DNA from: a virus
Virus record (IMG/VR): IMGVR_UViG_3300046507_000505
Span: 1-36,019 of that record
DNA: 36,019 nucleotides
Reading direction: 5' to 3' (one strand)
The first letter of the stretch is position 1, and the number at the start of each line of letters is the position of its first letter. Shown in pieces: positions 4,557-17,585 of the stretch. Under the pieces are notes generated by a model. The model saw nothing but the letters and a program-made list of their open reading frames with translations. It had not been told where the DNA came from and searched no databases. The position numbers and the translations under genes are program-made.

Positions 4557-6332
4557 ATGCTTGATATCGCCGCCACCATCGACCCCCGCCGCCTCGCCCG
4601 GCAGATGTACTTCGCCGGGTGGGGAGTGACCTCGATCGCCGAACGCATCGGCGAGAACCGCTCGACGGTGGAGGCCTGGAAGCAACGCGATGGATGGGCC
4701 ACCGCGGCGCCAATGCAGCGCGTCGAGGACTGCCTCGACGCACGCATTTGCCAGCTGGTGCTCAAGGACGAGAAATCGGCTCACGACTTCAAGGAAATCG
4801 ACCTGCTCACCCGGCAGTTCGAGCGCCTTGCACGGGTTCGTCGCTACGAATCCCCGGGCGGCCACGAGGGCGATCTCAATCCCGCAGTCGCCAACCGAAA
4901 CGCCGGACCAAAGAAGAAGCAGGCGCCCAACGCTTTCACGCCCGACCAGGTGCAAAAGCTTCGGGAGGCGTTCTTCGATTCGATCTACGGCTACCAGCGC
5001 CAGTGGTACGACGCCGGTCTGACCGAGCGTATCCGCGCCATTCTCAAATCGCGCCAGATCGGTGCCACCTGGTACTTCGCGCGAGAGGCGTTGATCGACG
5101 CCCTGGACACCGGGCGGAACCAGATCTTTCTCTCGGCGAGCCAGCGGCAGGCCTTCCACTTCCGGAAGTACCAGCAGGACTTCGTCAAGGAAGTGCTGGA
5201 TATGGAACTCCGCGGTGGGCGTGACGCCCCCATCGTGCTCGGCAATGACGCCAGCCTGTACTTCCTTGGAACGAATTCGCGAACCGCCCAGGGCTACAGC
5301 GGGAACCTGTATTTCGACGAGTTCTTTTGGGTCCACTCGTTCGTGCAGCTGCGCAAGCTCGCGTCGGCGATGGCCGTGCACAAGCGGTGGCGGCAGACGA
5401 TGTTCTCCACGCCGTCGTCGCTCAGCCACGATGCGTTCCCGTTCTGGAGCGGCGCGCAGTACAACAAGGGGCGTTCGAAGGCCGATCGCGTCGAGATCGA
5501 TATCAGCCACGCAGCCCTTGCCGCGGGCATGCGCGGCGGCGATGGAATGTGGCGCCAGATCGTCACCATCCTCGATGCGCTGGCTGGCGGGTGCGATCTC
5601 TTTGACCTTGAACGGCTGAAACTGGAGTACTCGGCAGACGAGTTCGAACAGCTGCTCATGTGCCAGTTCATCGACGATGCGCTGTCGGTGTTCATGTTTG
5701 CCCTGGTGAAGGGCTGCATGGTGGACAGCTGGGATATATGGGATGACGTCAGGTTCGATCGCGAGCGCATTATCGGCGACGCGCCGGTGGGCATTGGCTT
5801 CGATCCCTCAAAGGGGACCAGCGGCGGCGACCCGTCCGGTTGCACGGTCACCGCATTGCCCACCCGCGAACGCGACATCTTCCGCATCCTCGAAAAATTC
5901 CAGTGGCCCGGGCAGGACTTCGACGCGCAGGCGAAGTCCATCAAGGCCCTCACGGATCGATACAACGTCGCCGATATCGCGATCGACGTGACGGGCATGG
6001 GCATCGGCGTGTACGAGCTCGTGAAGCAGTTCTATCCAGCCGTGCGCGCCATCCATTACTCGCCCGAGGTGAAGTCCCGGATGGTGATGAAGGCGACCGA
6101 CGTGATGAGCAAAGGCCGCCTGGAATGGGATGCTGGGTGGACCGACCTCGCCGCGGCGTTCATGGCGATTCGAAAAACGATGACCGCCAGCGGCCGCCAC
6201 GTTACCTACCAAGCAAGCCGATCCGACGATGTGGGCCACGCTGATCTCGCGTGGTCCGTCATGCACACCCTTATCTATGAGCCGCTTGAAGGCCGGGCGG
6301 CTTACAGCAACAACATCATGGAGTTCTGCTGA
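4557..6332 (+). CDS. P: terminase large subunit, packaging ATPase (gpP-like)
   Basis: This is a 591-aa P2 gpP-type terminase (P2 P about 590 aa), the motor that drives DNA into the procapsid. An N-terminal helix-turn-helix is visible at about residues 11-47 (MYFAGWGVTSIAERIGENRS). The deviant Walker A (KSRQIGAT, about 164-171) and Walker B (LYFDEFF, about 251-257) follow. A C-terminal nuclease-like RNase H region has FDPSKGTSGGDPSG and AIDVTGMG. Transcription is divergent from O across the shared Ogr box. The stop overlaps the ATG of Q (TGATG), so P and Q are translationally coupled. Confidence 0.96.
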   Translation: MLDIAATIDPRRLARQMYFAGWGVTSIAERIGENRSTVEAWKQRDGWATAAPMQRVEDCLDARICQLVLKDEKSAHDFKEIDLLTRQFERLARVRRYESPGGHEGDLNPAVANRNAGPKKKQAPNAFTPDQVQKLREAFFDSIYGYQRQWYDAGLTERIRAILKSRQIGATWYFAREALIDALDTGRNQIFLSASQRQAFHFRKYQQDFVKEVLDMELRGGRDAPIVLGNDASLYFLGTNSRTAQGYSGNLYFDEFFWVHSFVQLRKLASAMAVHKRWRQTMFSTPSSLSHDAFPFWSGAQYNKGRSKADRVEIDISHAALAAGMRGGDGMWRQIVTILDALAGGCDLFDLERLKLEYSADEFEQLLMCQFIDDALSVFMFALVKGCMVDSWDIWDDVRFDRERIIGDAPVGIGFDPSKGTSGGDPSGCTVTALPTRERDIFRILEKFQWPGQDFDAQAKSIKALTDRYNVADIAIDVTGMGIGVYELVKQFYPAVRAIHYSPEVKSRMVMKATDVMSKGRLEWDAGWTDLAAAFMAIRKTMTASGRHVTYQASRSDDVGHADLAWSVMHTLIYEPLEGRAAYSNNIMEFC

Positions 6333-7369
6333 TGGCTAAACGCAAGCACCGCCACGTCGCGCCCAACGTATCCGTCGGCGACCCGCCCCCGGGAACCGGC
6401 ACGATGGAGGCTTTCACCTTCGGCGACCCTGAGATGATCGACCGCGCTTCGCTGCTCGACTACACCGAGCTCGTCAACAACGGCCGGTGGTACGAGACGC
6501 CGTTGAACTTTCGCGGCCTGGCCAACATGGCACGGGTGGCTCCGCATCACGCGTCGGCGATGTACGTCAAGCGGAACCTGCTCGTGGCTTCGTTCGTGGA
6601 AACCCCTTATCTGTCCACGCACGAGTTTGCGGCCTTCGCCACGGACTACGTGACGTTCTTCAATGCGTACCTGGAAAAGGTGATGGCGATCTCCGGTCGC
6701 TTGCTGTCGCTCAAGCGCTGCCCCGCCATGCAGACACGCGTGGGCGTCGATCCCGGGGCGTTCTTCTTCGTACCCGACAGCGGCATCGAGCACGCGTTCG
6801 ACGTTGGTACGGTGGTCCACCTACACGACACCGACGTGACGCAGGAAATCTATGGCCTGCCCGAATATCTGAGCGCGCTTCACTCCGCCCAGCTGAACCG
6901 CTCGGCGACACTGTTCCGTCGTAAGTACTACGACAACGGCTCACACGCCGGGTTCATCCTCTACATGACCGACGCCGCGCAGGATCAAAAGGACGTTGAC
7001 AAAATGCGCGATGCGCTGAAGCAATCGAAGGGCCCCGGCAACTTCCGCAACCTGTTCATGTACGCGCCCAATGGTAAGAAGGACGGCATCCAGCTGATCC
7101 CGATCAGCGAGGTCGCCGCCAAGGATGACTTTGCCTCGATCAAGAACGTAAGCCGCGACGACGTGCTTGCGGCCCACCGGGTGCCGCCCCAACTGCTCGG
7201 CGTGGTGCCCATGAATGCCGGCGGTTTCGGAGACGTGGAGAAGGCGACCAGGGTGTTCCTCGCCAACGAGATCGTGCCCATCCAGCGGCGCATGCTGGCC
7301 CTGAACAACGTGCTCGGCGTCGAGGCGTTCCGGTTCGAAAACGCCGCCTCGGCCGACACAACAAAATAG
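6332..7369 (+). CDS. Q: portal protein (gpQ-like)
   Basis: This is a 345-aa P2 gpQ family (PBSX-type) portal protein, almost exactly the P2 length of about 344. It forms the dodecameric ring at the head vertex through which DNA passes. Diagnostic segments are EAFTFGDPEMIDR, NGRWYETPLNFRGLANMARVAPHH, YGLPEYLSALHSAQLNRSATLFRRKYYDNGSHAGFILY and the C-terminal AAHRVPPQLLGVVPMNAGGFGDVEKA. Its start overlaps the stop of P. Its last codons and TAG lie inside the first of two operator-like repeats of the HicAB promoter (7358-7373), an unusually tight junction with an accessory module. Confidence 0.96.
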   Translation: MAKRKHRHVAPNVSVGDPPPGTGTMEAFTFGDPEMIDRASLLDYTELVNNGRWYETPLNFRGLANMARVAPHHASAMYVKRNLLVASFVETPYLSTHEFAAFATDYVTFFNAYLEKVMAISGRLLSLKRCPAMQTRVGVDPGAFFFVPDSGIEHAFDVGTVVHLHDTDVTQEIYGLPEYLSALHSAQLNRSATLFRRKYYDNGSHAGFILYMTDAAQDQKDVDKMRDALKQSKGPGNFRNLFMYAPNGKKDGIQLIPISEVAAKDDFASIKNVSRDDVLAAHRVPPQLLGVVPMNAGGFGDVEKATRVFLANEIVPIQRRMLALNNVLGVEAFRFENAASADTTK

Positions 7370-7397
7370 TTGCATACAACGAATTTGTTGCTATAAT
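7358..7397 (+). promoter_or_regulatory. hicAB promoter with two operator repeats
   Basis: A near-consensus sigma70 promoter is present: TTGCAT (7370-7375), 16-bp spacer, TATAAT (7392-7397). The spacer is exactly a 16-bp element ACAACGAATTTGTTGC (7376-7391), and a related copy ACAACAAAATAGTTGC lies at 7358-7373, 18 bp away centre to centre. Each has a CAAC/GTTG dyad. This is the arrangement expected for autorepression by the HicB DNA-binding domain, with one site between -35 and -10. The first copy overlaps the end of gene Q. Confidence 0.8.
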
Positions 7398-7425
7398 GGT
7401 CCCACACCAACGGAAGGCGGGAGGC

Positions 7426-7605
7426 ATGAAGTACAGCGAATTCAAGCGGTGGTTGAAGCAGCAGGGCGTTGAGTTTGTCAGGTCCAGCGGTAGCAGCCAC
7501 CACCTCATTCGATACAAGGGCAAAACCTCGGTCTTTGCAGACCACGGCTCGAAAGAAATGAAAGAGCCGGTACGAAAGAAGATTATCAAAGACCTCGGCC
7601 TGTAA
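7426..7605 (+). CDS. hicA: HicA family toxin (mRNA interferase)
   Basis: This is a 59-aa HicA toxin. The family has a small double-stranded-RNA-binding-like fold and cleaves translated mRNA; the catalytic His lies in the GSSHH motif, here SSGSSHHLIRYKGK at about residues 20-33. The C-terminal KEPVRKKIIKDLGL is also typical. The ATG at 7426 is chosen over upstream frames because it matches the conserved MKYSEFKRWLKQQG start and has GGAAGG eight bases upstream. A stem-loop CGGCCT-GTAA-AGGCCG overlaps the stop codon. It is followed 65 bases later by its antitoxin. Confidence 0.93.
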   Translation: MKYSEFKRWLKQQGVEFVRSSGSSHHLIRYKGKTSVFADHGSKEMKEPVRKKIIKDLGL

Positions 7606-7670
7606 AGGCCGGGGCATCCCGGTGAAAGTCCGGCCTAAGCCCAATGAGTGGCACCAATGGAGTGATGACG

Positions 7671-8093
7671 ATGCGATACGCGATCAAGGTGGATGACATC
7701 GGCGGCGAGCTGATGGCGACCAGTCGGGACGTGCCCGAGTTCGCGACTACGGCCGACGAGCTCGATGAGCTGTTGGCCAATTCGGTTGTGGCGATGGAGT
7801 TGGCGTTGTCCGGCTACGTGGACGACCGGCGCGCACTGCCCGTAGCCAGCAAGGCACGCCGCGGTGAGCACGTGGTCGAGCTCCCGGCTCTCTCCGTGGC
7901 AAAGCTTGGCCTGTACCAGGCGATGCTGGACAAGGGCGTCAGCAAGGCGAAGCTCGCCCGGGATCTCGGGGTGCATCCGCCGCAGGTTGACCGCCTTCTG
8001 GACGTGACCCACGGGTCGAAGATCGAGGCGATCGAGCATGCCCTGCATCTGCTTGGGCAGCGCCTGGTTGTCGAGGTCTGCGAAGCGGCGTGA
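7671..8093 (+). CDS. hicB: HicB family antitoxin with HTH domain
   Basis: This is a 140-aa HicB antitoxin. The N-terminal part has the degenerate RNase H-like HicB fold (MRYAIKVDDIGGELMATSRDVPEFATTADELDELLANSVVAMELAL). The C-terminal part is a helix-turn-helix domain (LGLYQAMLDKGVSKAKLARDLGVHPPQVDRLLD, about residues 79-112), which would bind the repeats at the hicAB promoter. The ATG at 7671 is preferred, with GGAG eight bases upstream; in-frame starts at 7644 and 7665 are poorly spaced. It neutralises HicA and represses the operon. A strong terminator follows 26 bases after the stop. Confidence 0.92.
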   Translation: MRYAIKVDDIGGELMATSRDVPEFATTADELDELLANSVVAMELALSGYVDDRRALPVASKARRGEHVVELPALSVAKLGLYQAMLDKGVSKAKLARDLGVHPPQVDRLLDVTHGSKIEAIEHALHLLGQRLVVEVCEAA

Positions 8094-8118
8094 CAAGGTA
8101 AGGCCTGGCGGATCTGCA

Positions 8119-8142
8119 GGGCGGCTTCGGCCGCCCTTTTTT
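8119..8142 (+). terminator. rho-independent terminator after hicB
   Basis: A perfect 7-bp stem GGGCGGC/GCCGCCC closed by a TTCG tetraloop (8119-8136) is followed by six T residues. It would end both hicAB transcription and the rightward P-Q late transcript before the cos region. Confidence 0.95.
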
Positions 8143-8160
8143 CTGTACGCTGGCCAGGCC

Positions 8161-8424
8161 ATGACGACCCCGACCACTGAGCATGAAGCGTTGCGCGCCC
8201 TCGCCGTCATGGCCGGCGTGTTGCGGTATTGCCCCAGGCATGATCTGTTCTACCGCGGCCCCGAGCCAGTCGATGCGGCGATGCCGCTGTATGACCGCCA
8301 CCTTGACGAGGTGCGCCGCTTCTTCCCTACCCCTGTCGCCTTCTACACGGCGCTGAAGTACGCCCGGTCGCAGCACCAGGCGATGTACTGCCCCGAGTGC
8401 ACCAGGGCGGTCGGCTTCGTCTAG
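8161..8424 (+). CDS. small Cys-containing protein, unknown function
   Basis: This 87-aa reading frame starts with ATG 19 bases after the terminator. It has two cysteine-containing motifs, LRYCPRHDLFY near the N-terminus and a C-terminal MYCPECTRA with a CxxC pair, which may bind one metal ion. I do not recognise the family. It lies between hicAB and the GC-rich cos block, where P2-like phages often carry small cargo genes. No convincing promoter is seen: the only upstream sequence is the terminator U-tract and a GC-rich linker, so expression may depend on readthrough. Coding status is moderately supported by its ordinary amino-acid composition. Confidence 0.6.
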   Translation: MTTPTTEHEALRALAVMAGVLRYCPRHDLFYRGPEPVDAAMPLYDRHLDEVRRFFPTPVAFYTALKYARSQHQAMYCPECTRAVGFV

Positions 8425-8813
8425 CGTCCGACGCTCTAGAACGCCCCACACGCGCCTCCGCCTTGTCGCCACCCTCGTGGTGGCCGAGGGCGCGCGCGCG
8501 CCTGGGCGGGCGCTGGGCGTCGCGAGAGGGGCATCGAGCGAGGGGGGCGGGGGCGCCCGGGCGGGGCCTCTGGCCCCAGCGCGCGCCGTCGTCCCCCCTC
8601 CTCGCCTGCGCACTTCTCCCCCTGCTTTTGATGCAGCTGACGCGGACGCCTGAAACGGCCCGCTCCAACGCTTTCGTCCGGGTTGCTTGGGTCGCGTGCG
8701 TGATGCGGATTGATGCACCTGGGCGGGGTCTCTGACGCGAATGCGGTGAGCGAATTACCAAACGCTGTTTGTCCGATAGGGCACTAAATCCTATGTGCTA
8801 TCAAAGCTGATTT
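8425..8813. other. GC-rich non-coding packaging region
   Basis: This is a 389-bp interval without a credible gene. Its left two thirds are extremely G+C-rich with purine-strand blocks: GCGAGAGGGG at 8522-8531 and GCGAGGGGGG at 8538-8547 on the plus strand, and the cos-like GGCGAGGAGGGGGG on the minus strand at 8593-8606. The right end turns AT-richer and has an imperfect hairpin (GATAGGGCAC at 8775-8784 with GTGCTATC at about 8795-8802). Position between portal Q and the non-late genes is that of cos in P2. Confidence 0.7.
8588..8606 (-). other. candidate cos site (19-nt cohesive end)
   Basis: The minus strand reads GGCGAGGAGGGGGGACGAC. The P2 19-nt cohesive end as I recall it is GGCGAGGCGGGGAAAGCAC, giving 14 of 19 identities, and the orientation (reading toward the 3' end of Q) is the same as in P2. 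The similarity continues into the flank (GGCGCGCGCTG here, TGCGCGCTG in P2). The terminase genes M and P are of P2 type, so a P2-like cos is expected here. Exact nick positions cannot be fixed from sequence alone. Confidence 0.7.
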
Positions 8814-9500
8814 TCATTTTTGTTGCGAATGGTTCTCAACTTTTTTCGTTTTGTGCGTTGGCAAATATCGCCGCAATCGGAGGGCGCTTTCCTTCACGGC
8901 TTCCTTTACGCGCGTGGTCAGTTCCGTTGGTGGCAAGGGCTCGCCGTCGCCGGGGAGGATTGGCGTATCGAAGACTTGGGCGTTGACCTCGATTTCGAGC
9001 TCGGGCCGCCGATTGAACAGCGCGCCGCCTTGGCGCTCGTTCTGTAGAAACAGGTCCATAGCCGATCGGAGCGTGGAGTAGCTGCCATATAGCCGCTCGT
9101 CTATCAGATCACCGTCGCCCCAGAGGGCGCCCATCTCTGGCTTAAGAGCGTCGAGCTCCATGAGGGCGACAAACGCCTTGTCTATCCGCGCCTGGAATAC
9201 GTGCGCCCACGCGCCCGCTTTCTCTCGCGGCGTTGCGGCCATGGGGTCATATCCCTGCGGGAATTCACTGCCGCTTGTGAACGGCGACCTCGCGCGTTGG
9301 AACGCTGCCTCGAAACGAAACACGGCCTGCAGCGAGCGACGGGCGAGATCGAAATCCGCCTTGCCCTTCTCTTCGCTACGCCACTTCGTAATGCCCATCA
9401 ACGCCGCGCGAGCCGTGACGATCGCAGCGCCGGCAAGCACCAGGTCTTTCACGACGCCAACGGCTTTCGGCCAGTCAACGGTGCACATCCATGGACCCAT
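8814..9500 (-). CDS. membrane-anchored accessory protein, unknown function
   Basis: This 228-aa protein has a hydrophobic N-terminal segment (about residues 12-36, AVGVVKDLVLAGAAIVTARAALMGI), then a basic WRSEEKGK junction and a long helical, presumably cytoplasmic domain (ADFDLARRSLQAVFRFEAAFQRARSPF ...). The layout resembles a widespread group of uncharacterised phage and bacterial proteins with an N-terminal TM helix followed by a KG..xFxLARxxLxAVxRxxxA stretch; this is recollection, not a search. It sits alone between cos and the iteron cluster, the position where P2 carries its tin/old exclusion genes, so an exclusion or anti-phage role is plausible but unproven. The start may be the ATG at 9500 or the Met five residues in. 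Confidence 0.7.
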   Translation of the reverse strand: MGPWMCTVDWPKAVGVVKDLVLAGAAIVTARAALMGITKWRSEEKGKADFDLARRSLQAVFRFEAAFQRARSPFTSGSEFPQGYDPMAATPREKAGAWAHVFQARIDKAFVALMELDALKPEMGALWGDGDLIDERLYGSYSTLRSAMDLFLQNERQGGALFNRRPELEIEVNAQVFDTPILPGDGEPLPPTELTTRVKEAVKESALRLRRYLPTHKTKKVENHSQQK

Positions 9501-9954
9501 AAATTCTCGCTGTCAGGTTGGCCTCGGGAAAAGGCGATAAGGGCAATATGAAAGGGCGATATCCGCCGAAGGCGTTGTGGCCCAACAGGTTCAGGGGTAG
9601 GAGCAAAAGGCGATATTAGAGTGATAAATATCGCTGTTCTATATAAATCAATAAGTTATAGGTCAAAAATATCGCCCTAAGAGAGTGCAACCTTATCGCC
9701 CCAAGATCGCCGTTTTATCGCCTTTCGGTTTTCACTCTAACCTCCGGAAATTCATCGTGAAAGTAGGACGCTGATTTCCGATATCGCCTTTATCGCCCTT
9801 TTCCGACGAGGCCACACATTGGGAGCGCTATATATAGGGGAGGGTCACCACCTACGCCATGGCGATACGCGCTGCAGCTCTCCGCTGCTGCAACGCTGCC
9901 CATCTGTGTCCCTGCTGCGGCTCCCTGGGTGGCCTGCTCCGCCGTCCGGCCGCG
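9501..9954. other. intergenic region holding the iteron cluster
   Basis: This 454-bp stretch contains no supported gene. It is locally AT-rich in an otherwise GC-rich genome and carries the iteron cluster in its left 370 bp. The last 90 bp are GC-rich with CTGCTGC/GCTGCAG runs and appear to be ordinary spacer. Reading frames crossing it on the plus strand (from 9819) have low-complexity, shadow-like composition. Confidence 0.6.
9533..9867. repeat. TATCGCC iteron cluster, candidate replication origin
   Basis: Nine exact copies of the heptamer GGCGATA/TATCGCC occur here. Three are in one orientation on the left (9533, 9555, 9609), five in the opposite orientation on the right (9670, 9694, 9716, 9782, 9791), and one outlier lies at 9861. 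Near-matches lie at 9542 (GGCAATA), 9629 (TATCGCT) and 9705 (GATCGCC). Many copies share flanking A/T (AAAAGGCGATA, TATCGCCTTT). The two arms face each other across a very AT-rich core (about 9615-9670, ATATAAATCAATAAGTTATA). This resembles iteron origins recognised by alpha-type primase-helicases. Binding sites for another regulator are the main alternative. Confidence 0.6.
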
Positions 9955-10296
9955 TCAGTCAGCGAGCGCTGCAGGGCGCCGTGGAACTTCAACAGGCATT
10001 AGCCGTCCGTTTTGTACGCGCCTGGCATCGAGCTCGCCCGCACCACTGTGCGTCGACGCAGTGGTGGTCACCGTGGCCGCGGCGAGGGATGCGATGCCGT
10101 CTTCGAGGCGCCTGGTAAGCGCGACCAGGTTGGATACGTAGCCGTCGATCATCAGGTAGACGTGTTCCGGCTCGATGGTGTGCTGCCCGATCGCTGCCGT
10201 GATGCCGGCGCCGAGCGACGAAAGCGCGCCGATGCGCGATCCGAGCTCGCGGGTTTGCTCGAGGAGTTCATTGGGGGTGGGGGAGTGGGTGGTCAT
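9955..10296 (-). CDS. hypothetical protein, 113 aa
   Basis: This is an unrecognised 113-aa protein starting MTTHSPTPNELLEQTRELGS. The ATG at 10296 is chosen because GGAG lies six bases upstream; an in-frame Met 18 codons earlier is less likely. The N-terminal 80 residues look like a compact helical domain (GALSSLGAGITAAIGQHTIEPEHVYLMIDGYVSNLVALTRRLEDGIASLAA), followed by a low-complexity Thr/Ala stretch and a Pro/Arg tail. It has no membrane segment and no cysteine motif. It lies between the iteron cluster and the presumed attP, transcribed away from the integrase, and would be expressed independently of the late operons. Confidence 0.6.
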   Translation of the reverse strand: MTTHSPTPNELLEQTRELGSRIGALSSLGAGITAAIGQHTIEPEHVYLMIDGYVSNLVALTRRLEDGIASLAAATVTTTASTHSGAGELDARRVQNGRLMPVEVPRRPAALAD

Positions 10297-10717
10297 CTCT
10301 TGCTCCGTGCAGAAATTGCGAAATGCGTCCTGTATCGGCAGGGTCCGCATGGTTCAGTACGGTTGACATTCGATGACTTGGCGGCTCCAGCGCCGGTCGG
10401 GTGGTGCATGTGCCGTACAATGGCCGGCCAGCCTCCGCGCGCGTAGTCCAGCGCCGAAGATTGGGGGTATGTATGGGGGTACTTTTACAGCCACCCCTAC
10501 CATCGTGGCAATGAAAACAAATGCTTAGGTCTTCTATGCTGCTAATGATCGAAAATAAGCATATCGGGCCATAGCCATCCGACACCGGATGATGGGCGGT
10601 TCGCAAACGGCGGTCCTACGCCATTTGTTGTGTGCGTTTGTGCACGATGAACCATAGCCAGCCGACAAAAGTGGGGGTACTTTTGGGGGTATCGCCACGA
10701 AGTACCCCCACAATCTC
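10297..10717. other. intergenic region carrying attP
   Basis: No gene is supported in this 421-bp interval. The right 250 bp hold the integrase arm-type repeats. The part from about 10500 to 10660 is relatively AT-rich, with CATCCGACACCGGATG near 10577 forming a small dyad. A TTGACA at 10363 lacks a matching -10 at 17 bp. No tRNA 3'-end is obvious. Confidence 0.5.
10462..10710. repeat. attP-like region: integrase arm-type repeats
   Basis: Five copies of TGGGGGTA occur just upstream of the integrase. A direct pair at 10462 and 10474 has 12-bp spacing, a second direct pair at 10672 and 10684 has the same 12-bp spacing, and an inverted copy (TACCCCCA) lies at 10703-10710. The second copy of the first pair and the first copy of the second pair both continue as TGGGGGTACTTTT. 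Between the pairs lie two further 16-bp repeats, CCATAGCCATCCGACA (10569-10584) and CCATAGCCAGCCGACA (10652-10667). Paired arm sites flanking a core next to int are the expected form of an attP; the core itself should lie in about 10489-10671. Confidence 0.65.
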
Positions 10718-13697: not shown

Positions 13698-14606
13698 TCA
13701 GGCGGCCTCGGGTCGGGTCACATTGAAGGTCCGCTCGAGGAATTCGAGCAGGCGGTTCACTTCCAGGACGGCCAGGGCGAACGAGCCCTCGGTTTCTTCG
13801 TCCATCGAGTCGTAGGCGCTATCGGCCGCCGATTCGAGCAGCACATCGGTGGGCCTGAGCGCTTTCACGGCAAGGTCGTCGCCCAGCACCAGGTTCAACC
13901 GGTCGTCGAACGTCAGGCCGGTCGAAAAACATTGCTTGCCGCTACGCAGGTGTTCGCGGATCTCCTCCGTGTCGAGGTCTTGCCGGCGGCACCGCACGAC
14001 CGAGCCGTGGGCGCCCGACGCGTCGCGGAGCTCGCACTCATCACCGAGGGTCAGGCCTTCGGGCACGGCCCCTTCTGAGAGCCATGAGGTCATGTGGATG
14101 CGCGGCGATTCATCCGGGGCGGGGGGAACTGCCGGCAGCGAACCGAAGGCCTCCCGAAGCGAGCTCAGGACGTTCTCGGCCGTCTTCCGGCTACGGGCGT
14201 CGATCACGACGCGGCCGTTGCCCAGGTCGAGCCAGCCGCGCGTGATGCGTGCGACAACCAGCGCGCGTGGCAGCACCTCGTTCCATACGTCGTCGGCGAT
14301 GCGCTTGCGCTCGCGGCCGCCGACCTTGCGGCCTTCGTCCTGGGCGATCTTTTCCACGCGTTTGGCCACCTCGTCCTTGACGGCGCGAGGGTTGATGTCG
14401 CGCATGCGTTCCTCGAAGGCGAAGCCGTAGACCTCGCCCTGGCGAACGACCCGGCGGTTATCCGTGCGGCCATACGGCGAGGCGAAGCCACGCGTGGCAA
14501 GCTCGGCCTCGCCCGGCTCGCGAACGGCGTGCTCCTGCAGGGCCGCTTCAATGTCGGGTCTAAGATCCGATGCGAAGTAGTAAACGATAAGGTTCCTGGG
14601 AAACAT
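13698..14606 (-). CDS. rdgC: recombination-associated protein RdgC
   Basis: This is a 302-aa protein matching the RdgC family in length (E. coli RdgC is 303 aa) and sequence. It has an N-terminal MFPRNLIVYYF, then FASPYGR, FAFEERMRDINPRAVKDEVAKRVEKIAQDEGRKVGGRERKRIADDVWNEVLPRAL and the C-terminal CFSTGLTFDDRLNLVLGDDLAVKALRPTDVLLE. RdgC forms a ring around duplex DNA and inhibits RecA loading and strand exchange. A phage copy in the early operon right after the replication gene suggests control of host recombination on replicating or concatemeric phage DNA. The start ATG at 14606 lies 7 bases after the previous stop. Confidence 0.95.
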   Translation of the reverse strand: MFPRNLIVYYFASDLRPDIEAALQEHAVREPGEAELATRGFASPYGRTDNRRVVRQGEVYGFAFEERMRDINPRAVKDEVAKRVEKIAQDEGRKVGGRERKRIADDVWNEVLPRALVVARITRGWLDLGNGRVVIDARSRKTAENVLSSLREAFGSLPAVPPAPDESPRIHMTSWLSEGAVPEGLTLGDECELRDASGAHGSVVRCRRQDLDTEEIREHLRSGKQCFSTGLTFDDRLNLVLGDDLAVKALRPTDVLLESAADSAYDSMDEETEGSFALAVLEVNRLLEFLERTFNVTRPEAA

Positions 14607-14858: not shown

Positions 14859-17585
14859 TCACTCCCCCGGGCTCCGCTTCTTTGCTGCCGGCGTCGCCGG
14901 CGATTCGTTGGCGCCGCGCTGGAACACCCAGCATTTGACGGTGCGGCCGCCGAGCTTCGGATCGCTCTTGTCCTTGAGCCATATCCCGCTGTTGACGTCC
15001 TTGATCGCGACGAACTTGCGCACCTTCGAGTTTTTCAGGTGCTTCTTGAGCTCGTTGAGGTTCGGAATCTGCAACTTGTATTCGGCCGCGCACTGCTCGA
15101 AGTGGTTGAGGTTGATGGCGATCTCGCCGTCTTTGCGGGCGTGGTTCAGCTGCGGGAAAGAGTTGTACGTATCCAGGTAGTCGAAGCGCTCCCAGAAGGT
15201 CTGCACCACCTTGTGGTCGGAACTGATCGACTCCTGCCGTTCCGTGGCCATCCCGTACACCTCGGCCTTCACCTGGTCACGCTGCGCGTCGGTCACGTCG
15301 ATCACGGCGCAAAGGGCGTCGAACACCGCTAGCAGCTGGCCGTGGTTCTTGGCGATACGGGTGGTTTTCACTCCATCGAGCTGGATGATGTCGGCCTCGT
15401 GCCGCGGCGCGCTTTCGCCGATGATCCCAAGCACCTTTTGTTCGGCACGGGTCGCCATGACGAAGAACTGCGACACGGCATCGATCGGCATCTGTTCCAG
15501 CTTGAGCGCCGCTGCCCGGGTTTCCGTCGTGTGCGCCGAACGGTCCACCGTGATGTGCACGATGCGCTGCATGATTGCCTCGCTCGCCTCAACCTTGGCG
15601 TTCTGCGAGATCACCACAGTGGAACGGAAAGGCGGCTCCCGGGTGTCGTTGCCCGAGTTCTTCACGCCGATCGCGCGCACGCTTCGGCCGTTGTACGCGG
15701 TCTTGAGCTCGTCCCAATCGAACCTCTTTTTGGCGTCGTCGCCTTCGCGATCGCTCTCGATCAGCACGACAGGCAGGTTCGACACCTGGGCGAAGTTACG
15801 GGCACGCGCGGCCAGGGTCGCCTTCGACGGGTCGAAACCCTCGTAGTCCGTGCGACCCACCAGCTTCCACATGAACTCGATGAGGGTGGACTTACCAGCG
15901 CCGGCCTCGCCCACGAGCTCGAGGAACGGGTAGCTCTTGTGCATGGCGCGGATCTGCTCGGCGAACAGACTGCCGAACCAGAACGTGAGGGCCACAAAGC
16001 CTTTGGGCCCGAAGCATCGCCACACCAGGTCGATCCACTCCGCGCGGTAATCCTTGCGATCGCGGTTAATGGCCAGCTTGGGCGAGTGCGTCAACGTCTT
16101 CACGTTGAGGCGGCCGATCTCGAAGTAATCCTCGTCGTTGAGGTCGTACACGTTGCCGTTGGCGATCGCCACATCACCCAGGATGTAGGCGCCGTGTTCC
16201 TTGCTGAAACCCACGTAGTCGATCGTCTCCACGGTTTTCAGCCGCTTCAATTGGACCTTGATGATTCGGTCCAGCTGCTGGCTGCTGCCGGTGAATACGG
16301 CGCCCGGCGCGATCGACAGCAGGCGCTTCTTGAACTCGCTCGCGCTGGCCAGCGCGGCACCGGTGAAGGTGCTCTTAATCGGCTTCGGTGCATCGGGCTG
16401 GGTGACACGGTAGTAGTACCAGGACTCGTCCGTGGTGTGATTCGCCTGGAAGTACAGGGGGAACGGGTAGCAGTTTGCGATTTCGGAGTTGTCGCAGGCC
16501 TCGGCGAGCGCTTGCGCCTTGGCGTCGTCCTCGTCCTGGTCGGGCTCCTTTTCGCGCAGGTTGGCGTAGGCCTTCTCGTACGCCTTGGCGTCGAGCTCGA
16601 ACCAGTAAAGGCTGCTGGCGTATTCGTAGAAGAACGTGCTGAGCCCGGTGCGGTTGTACATGAGGCGCGCCTTGTCCGCCGCCGATCGAGCGATCAGCAG
16701 GGAGCCGTCATAGCGATATCGCTCCACGTCCTTGGCTTCGAGGGCGTTGGCGAGGTGGAGATCGCTCCAGTCCTTCTTGCCGCGGCTGTTCTGCTCAATG
16801 GTCGCGGCCTGGCAGGTGAACTTGTCCTTGCGAGCGCGAACCACCCACTTCTGCGTGTACTCGCGGCCAGCGTCATCGCCGTCCAGCGCCCAAACGATGG
16901 TCGGCAGCGGCGCGCTGCTGGCGGCAAATGTGCTGCGGACGCGTTCCAGGAACTTGCCCGGGTAGTTGTTGCACGACATGGCGGCCACGGCGAGGATGCC
17001 GTGATGGCCCAGCGCGATCGCATCGAAGATGCCTTCGACGATCCAGATCTCTTTCGCTTCGAGCAGCTTGGCGTCCGTCAGTGTCGGCGGAAGCCATGCC
17101 TGCCCGGTGTAGCCAAGACCAGGCGCGAAGTTGGCCTTCTTGCCGAAACGCTGGGGACGGTCGATAAGGCGTTCCCACCACGAGCCGCCGGGCAGCTGGA
17201 AGCGGACGGTGGCCGACGTATGGCGCGTTTCGTGGTCGCGGTACCACTCCTGCGTGTAGCTGCCGCGCACGTGCATCAGGTTGAAGCCGCGTCCCTCGCT
17301 CAGGTACGCGTCAGCAGCCGCGAAGGGACTGGAGTCACTGGCTTTGAAGCGGTCCGACCAGTCCTCGAAGAGCTCGGGGAACAGATCCTTGACCGAATCT
17401 TCGTAGCCGCAGTTGTTGAGGCGGCCGCAGCGGACCCACCACGGCGTGTCGGCGTTGGCATAGAGCTCTTTCTTGCCGCACATCGGGCACTTGCCACGGC
17501 GAAAGAAGCCGTTGCGCTCGACGAACTCGAATTTATCGACGAGCTTGCGGCGGATGTCGCCACGGAGAAGGCTTGTAAGGCTCAT
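14859..17585 (-). CDS. P4-alpha-like primase-helicase (zinc ribbon, TOPRIM, helicase)
   Basis: This 908-aa replication protein combines three modules. An N-terminal primase-type zinc ribbon has C33-C36 and C53-C59 (KCPMCGKKELYANADTPWW then VRCGRLNNC). A TOPRIM domain has Glu184 (EIWIVEGIFDA) and DGDDAG at 235-240. A C-terminal helicase ATPase has Walker A GEAGAGKST (559-567), Walker B-like VVLIESD (606-612) and an Arg in IMQRIVH (674) as possible arginine finger. It would prime and unwind DNA at an origin, as alpha does in satellite P4. The ATG at 17585 overlaps the TGA of the preceding gene. P2 instead uses the rolling-circle endonuclease gpA, which is absent here. The last 120 residues may hold an origin-binding domain. 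Confidence 0.93.
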   Translation of the reverse strand: MSLTSLLRGDIRRKLVDKFEFVERNGFFRRGKCPMCGKKELYANADTPWWVRCGRLNNCGYEDSVKDLFPELFEDWSDRFKASDSSPFAAADAYLSEGRGFNLMHVRGSYTQEWYRDHETRHTSATVRFQLPGGSWWERLIDRPQRFGKKANFAPGLGYTGQAWLPPTLTDAKLLEAKEIWIVEGIFDAIALGHHGILAVAAMSCNNYPGKFLERVRSTFAASSAPLPTIVWALDGDDAGREYTQKWVVRARKDKFTCQAATIEQNSRGKKDWSDLHLANALEAKDVERYRYDGSLLIARSAADKARLMYNRTGLSTFFYEYASSLYWFELDAKAYEKAYANLREKEPDQDEDDAKAQALAEACDNSEIANCYPFPLYFQANHTTDESWYYYRVTQPDAPKPIKSTFTGAALASASEFKKRLLSIAPGAVFTGSSQQLDRIIKVQLKRLKTVETIDYVGFSKEHGAYILGDVAIANGNVYDLNDEDYFEIGRLNVKTLTHSPKLAINRDRKDYRAEWIDLVWRCFGPKGFVALTFWFGSLFAEQIRAMHKSYPFLELVGEAGAGKSTLIEFMWKLVGRTDYEGFDPSKATLAARARNFAQVSNLPVVLIESDREGDDAKKRFDWDELKTAYNGRSVRAIGVKNSGNDTREPPFRSTVVISQNAKVEASEAIMQRIVHITVDRSAHTTETRAAALKLEQMPIDAVSQFFVMATRAEQKVLGIIGESAPRHEADIIQLDGVKTTRIAKNHGQLLAVFDALCAVIDVTDAQRDQVKAEVYGMATERQESISSDHKVVQTFWERFDYLDTYNSFPQLNHARKDGEIAINLNHFEQCAAEYKLQIPNLNELKKHLKNSKVRKFVAIKDVNSGIWLKDKSDPKLGGRTVKCWVFQRGANESPATPAAKKRSPGE

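Follow-up and report, generated by a model that had tools for sequence, protein, structure and literature searches.

The locus raises the question of where a phage built like P2, the textbook rolling-circle phage, begins its replication when the P2 initiator is missing. The window, i.e., the whole analysed stretch of 36,019 nucleotides, is a P2-like phage record with P and Q at 4557-7369 (+), O, N, and M on the opposite strand, and the tail genes to the right; its P2-type portal, terminase, capsid, and tail genes make it a complete phage. A search for gpA, with E values allowed up to 1, produced no hit to PF05840, in line with the absence of the gpA system assumed in an earlier sequence-only reading of this DNA. 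That reading placed the origin at a cluster of GGCGATA repeats, and our analysis indicates that these repeats are very probably the site at which replication of this P2-like phage starts. The features concerned are as follows.

8588-8606, - strand: cos by homology, GAAGTGCGCA/GGCGAGGAGGGGGGACGAC; compare GAAGTGCGCA/GGCGTGGCGGGGAGACGAG of Smp131
9533-9798, no strand: proposed replication origin (266 bp), two inverted iteron half-sets around an AT-rich core
9533-9548, + strand: outer left pair with a 9-bp offset, GGCGATA (9533) and GGCAATA (9542); relatives have 9-bp outer pairs at both ends
9555-9561, + strand: extra iteron, without counterpart in the common layout
9609-9615, + strand: inner left iteron, at a layout position
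9620-9679, no strand: AT-rich core, presumed melting region, including the iterons at 9629 (-, one mismatch) and 9670 (-)
9646-9658, + strand: exact match AATCAATAAGTTA to the IHF consensus WATCAANNNNTTR, in the AT-rich core
9694-9722, - strand: inner right triple in 11-bp steps, at 9694, 9705 (one mismatch), and 9716
9782-9797, - strand: outer right pair, at 9782 and 9791, 9 bp apart
10462-10710, no strand: attP region with integrase arm-like repeats TGGGGGTA at 10462, 10474, 10672, 10684 (+), and 10703 (-)
14859-17585, - strand: replicase of 908 aa (PHROG 1139) with zinc finger, TOPRIM primase, MCM-like helicase, and C-terminal winged helix; proposed initiator
14919-15212, - strand: C-terminal winged helix of the replicase (residues 792-889), proposed iteron-binding domain

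The Iteron Cluster and Its Setting

Exact GGCGATA copies lie at 9533, 9555, and 9609 on the + strand and at 9670, 9694, 9716, 9782, and 9791 on the - strand, so that a recount confirmed the eight heptamers within 265 bp, three facing right and five facing left around an AT-rich core, described in the sequence-only reading. Three sites with one mismatch, at 9542 (GGCAATA, +), 9629 (AGCGATA, -), and 9705 (GGCGATC, -), complete a set of 11, for which the consensus with flanks is A[A/G]GGCGATA[A/T]. The segment 9620-9679 contains 75-78% AT versus 35% for the window. Heptamer density, which had been suggested as a check, was computed along the whole 36-kb window and gave 18 copies of GGCGATA, compared with a mean of 3.6 and a maximum of 9 in dinucleotide shuffles. 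The earlier estimate of far fewer than one such cluster by chance also holds, since about 1e-14 clusters as dense as 9533-9797 are expected per genome scan; the best cluster score in 48 shuffled genomes was about 10^-3.5. A ninth exact copy at 9861 (+) is present as had been noted, but lies outside the 9533-9797 set; since its flank, CATGGCGATACGC, departs from the consensus and its position falls outside the conserved layout described below, it is probably a chance copy and was not counted as a member of the iteron set.

The cluster is separated by 5.06 kb from the replicase stop, 0.93 kb from the cos-like site, and 0.67 kb from the attP arm repeats, which agrees with the location given previously (about 5 kb from the replicase, next to attP and cos). 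The TGGGGGTA arm-like repeats, which directly precede int and include two pairs with a 12-bp offset, belong to a family separate from GGCGATA; their spacing resembles that annotated for the arm repeats in P4 attP. A HicA/HicB-like toxin-antitoxin pair occupies 7396-8093, between the portal gene Q and cos, and a HicA/HicB pair is annotated in phage phi3 as well. An RdgC-like recombination-associated protein gene (13698-14606, -) adjoins the replicase. Upstream of the replicase, the segment 18659-18884 (-) matched the Rfam entries for C4 antisense RNA (81 bits) and isrK as well as the C4 a1/b1 target element, and the early region may be under antisense RNA control of the P1/P4 kind.

Since the 8814-9500 gene starts directly downstream of the cluster, and regulators can bind several sites, the repeats could instead be operators of a phage regulator, such as a repressor, a Cox-like protein, or a regulator of that gene. 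However, the 8814-9500 gene has no recognised family and no sigma-70-like promoter was found in 9300-10100. This reading is very unlikely considering also the comparison with relatives, in which the layout is kept although the neighbouring genes differ and the cluster lies 0.3-5 kb from Q or by the replicase, and the iteron word tracks the C-terminus of the replicase.

A Conserved Layout with Changing Words

Phages and prophages encoding a PHROG 1139 replicase have clusters that span about 266-275 bp and are composed of other words, including GGTAATT, CTGTCAGA, CGTTACTT, AGGTTACA, and CGGTTACA, and the same layout recurs with unrelated words in dozens of phages. In the common orientation, sites occur at positions 0, 9, 74, 85, and 96 (+) and 171, 183, 193, 259, and 268 (-), frequently with an additional + site at 205. 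Read from either end, the order is 0, 9, ~75, 85, and 97, i.e., two inverted halves with outer pairs 9 bp apart, inner triples in steps of 10-12 bp, and nearly fixed site positions.

The window was compared with a template built from the relatives alone. Eight of the ten layout positions have a window site within 1 bp when each half is placed separately, which none of 3000 random placements equalled. A word-free layout fit matched 68 of 80 letters (null maxima of 53 for dinucleotide shuffles and 58 for block permutation), and a layout scan of 7370-10700 landed exactly on the 9533-9798 cluster.

The word itself is not kept. Relatives with 68-82% identical replicases contain no clusters of exact GGCGATA, because either the word differs or the region is absent from the sequence, and among relatives with 68-69% identical replicases the GCGATAT core is common only to L221. 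The sequence-only reading had held that absence of the repeats from close relatives with the same replicase would speak against an origin; since relatives with 68-69% identical replicases carry GGTAAT words at the same layout positions, this point applies to the layout, which is conserved, and not to the word GGCGATA, which is not. Support for the origin reading comes from this layout, which phages and prophages carrying the replicase keep while the word changes.

The IHF consensus WATCAANNNNTTR has 26 matches in 42 origins versus 1.1 expected, some of these origins being related, so that the counts are not independent. Most of the matches are near layout positions 46-49 and 149-152, in the gaps between groups of sites, suggesting that IHF may bind the origin spacers.

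Occurrence and Position in Relatives

The replicase is encoded in 21 phage records and in 76 of 398 genomes of one bacterial family, which we take to be Pseudomonadaceae solely from the matching phages. The cluster words are GGTAATT in Dobby, D14A, and Sirocco, AGGTAAC in Smp131, CTGTCAG in UFJF_PfPro, CCGGAACA in phi3, and TGGAAGG in JFK. Weaker clusters of similar span were detected in Halomonas 4908 and clone 2F_1, and similar-span clusters also occur in contigs L057-L063 and in Escherichia L120. No cluster was found in Bacillus phage ZY1, the record of which ends at the coding genes flanking the expected region, and a BLASTN search of the cluster region against phages gave no match. The nearest relatives (L002, L049, and L050, 81-98% identity) are represented by sequences without the origin region.

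Integrated prophages have the cluster at the end opposite to the replicase-int side. At the predicted far prophage end, adjoining the portal gene Q, a cluster (log10 < -5) was present in 34 of 40 stretches; three of the other six (L216, L222, and L240) are truncated and lack the region, and three untruncated prophage ends (L231, L247, and L253) scored below the threshold. Strong scores at the far end in L188, L193, L200, and L151 belong to other layouts and were left out of the count. Beside Q in contigs G003 and G006 no origin was found, perhaps as the contigs end there. The distance from the cluster to Q in relatives ranges from 0.3 to 5 kb, with differing neighbouring genes. Integrated prophages of the subfamily closer to the window mostly had no cluster when searched downstream of the replicase, which fits a separation of the two regions by attP. 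In the more distant subfamily of phi3/JFK type, a cluster of clear strength directly follows the replicase in seven of nine prophages; in phages of this type it lies about 3 kb from Q.

Deviating repeats were also observed. In L135 (400-930), which has a replicase of a more distant subfamily, GTTGTCCC repeats form 9-bp outer pairs at both ends and inner 21-bp steps, a possible variant of the origin. The clusters at 3552-3789 in L108 and 18223-18459 in L111 consist of the words TGTAGGGT and AATGTTAGG, have a shorter span of about 235 bp, and accompany replicases that are about 40% identical.

These positions bear on two other explanations. A cosB-like packaging region bound by terminase would be consistent with the nearby cos-like site and with clusters adjoining Q/cos in most relatives, but appears exceedingly unlikely given the variable distance to Q, the location of the phi3/JFK-type cluster directly behind the replicase gene and away from Q, and the lack of any such cluster (best log10 -4.7) in P2, 186, Fels-2, PSP3, and HP1, five gpA phages whose packaging is of the same type. 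A centromere or an integrase/excisionase site is highly improbable as well: inverted repeat sets do lie close to attP, and ParB-like or partition-like proteins are annotated in D14A and phi3, but the integrase arm-like repeats are of a different family, the cluster is opposite the replicase-int end in integrated prophages, and the scan of window proteins revealed no partition gene.

The Replicase and Its C-Terminal Domain

The AlphaFold2 model of the replicase has a mean pLDDT of 83.8, and residues 80-300 correspond to the DnaG-like primase part. Residues 317-904 matched SaPIbov1 Rep (8tch; Z 20.2 over 450 residues) and SCCmec Cch (5dgk; Z 20.1 over 459 residues), well ahead of the next helicases. 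By predicted structure, the replicase is a DnaG-like TOPRIM primase fused to a helicase of the SaPIbov1-Rep/SCCmec-Cch kind. It had previously been assigned to the P4-alpha type; in an HHalign comparison with P4 alpha only the TOPRIM region aligned, so that the assignment stands for this region, while the nearest counterparts of the remaining predicted structure are SaPIbov1 Rep and SCCmec Cch.

The C-terminus has a winged-helix topology in the predicted structure; compared alone with known winged helices, it gave weak matches (Z 4.7), Cch and RepE being among those at the top. In a comparison of 36 replicases, with a correction for divergence elsewhere in the protein but not for phylogeny, the 60-residue segment 841-900 tracked the iteron word best (partial r 0.53), and none of 1000 label permutations reached this value. 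In SaPI Rep and in Cch2, a related helicase of SCCmec, the C-terminal domain binds the origin iterons (PMC7581432).

Proposed Initiation Mechanism

The best explanation, in which we have high confidence on comparative evidence, is that 9533-9798 is the origin and that its iterons would be bound by the C-terminal winged helix of the replicase. Computational support comes from the cluster, its conserved layout, its co-occurrence with the replicase, the link between word and C-terminus, and the matches to the IHF consensus and the helicase fold. The winged helix of the 908-aa TOPRIM-primase/helicase would bind the GGCGATA iterons, and the two inverted sets of sites, assisted by IHF bending of the spacers, could position a helicase ring at either flank of the AT-rich core. 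Both rings would then melt the core and start replication, probably as bidirectional theta, and the presumed products are monomer circles, to be packaged at the nearby cos.

On a broader scale, we consider it slightly favoured that a widespread P2-like branch relies for replication on a self-loading helicase of the SaPI/PICI kind, acting at an origin that is rigid, inverted, and assisted by IHF and whose word changes with the C-terminal domain of the replicase. If true, this would link the satellite replicons (SaPI, PICI, and P4) to the phage family that P4 parasitises. A large share of P2 relatives (the replicase is carried by 76 of 398 genomes of one bacterial family) appears to have swapped the rolling-circle system for a satellite-like one. 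Because the layout is fixed while the words change, the co-evolution of initiator and origin can be tested directly, and the layout offers a means of locating origins in hundreds of prophages.

Comparison with Known Origins

The window shares with P2 and 186 the order of virion genes and a P2-like cos, but differs from their gpA rolling-circle system in having no gpA. In P4, short iterons are bound by the primase-helicase. The annotated type 1 repeats of P4 ori follow the order - - - + - -, the same as in the right half of the Dobby origin, with repeat pairs 9-10 bp apart, and our cluster scan also picks up the annotated crr and ori repeats of P4. The differences are that P4 uses the word GGTGAACA in two separate regions (ori and crr), and that the P4 alpha helicase belongs to the D5-type group, whereas that of the window is SaPIbov1-Rep-like.

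In PICIs, two sets of iterons flank an AT-rich region, an organisation said to be absent from any other known bacterial replicon (PMC6092414). The window likewise has two iteron sets flanking an AT-rich region, and SaPIbov1 Rep (8tch) and Cch (5dgk) are the nearest matches to the predicted fold of its helicase. Unlike the helper-dependent satellites, the window is a complete P2-like phage, and its helicase is fused to a DnaG-like TOPRIM primase. In its subfamily the origin lies about 5 kb (5.06 kb in the window) from the replicase, across int/attP and beside cos, whereas theirs is directly 3' of rep, and near adjacency of origin and replicase is found only in the phi3/JFK type. Origins of the window type have nearly fixed site positions and recurring IHF matches. 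Since the window is a complete phage and its origin does not adjoin the replicase, its origin is best classed as operating in the SaPI/PICI manner while standing outside that group.

A limited literature search found no paper describing such an origin in P2-like phages, and passages of the Smp131 paper do not mention the cluster; novelty is thus not proven. What would be new here is a SaPI/PICI/P4-like origin in complete P2-like phages. The PICI type of origin organisation appears to occur in these phages, which, if true, would contradict the statement that no other known bacterial replicon is organised in this way (PMC6092414). Overall, the window origin resembles the origins of the SaPI, PICI, and P4 satellites rather than that of P2.
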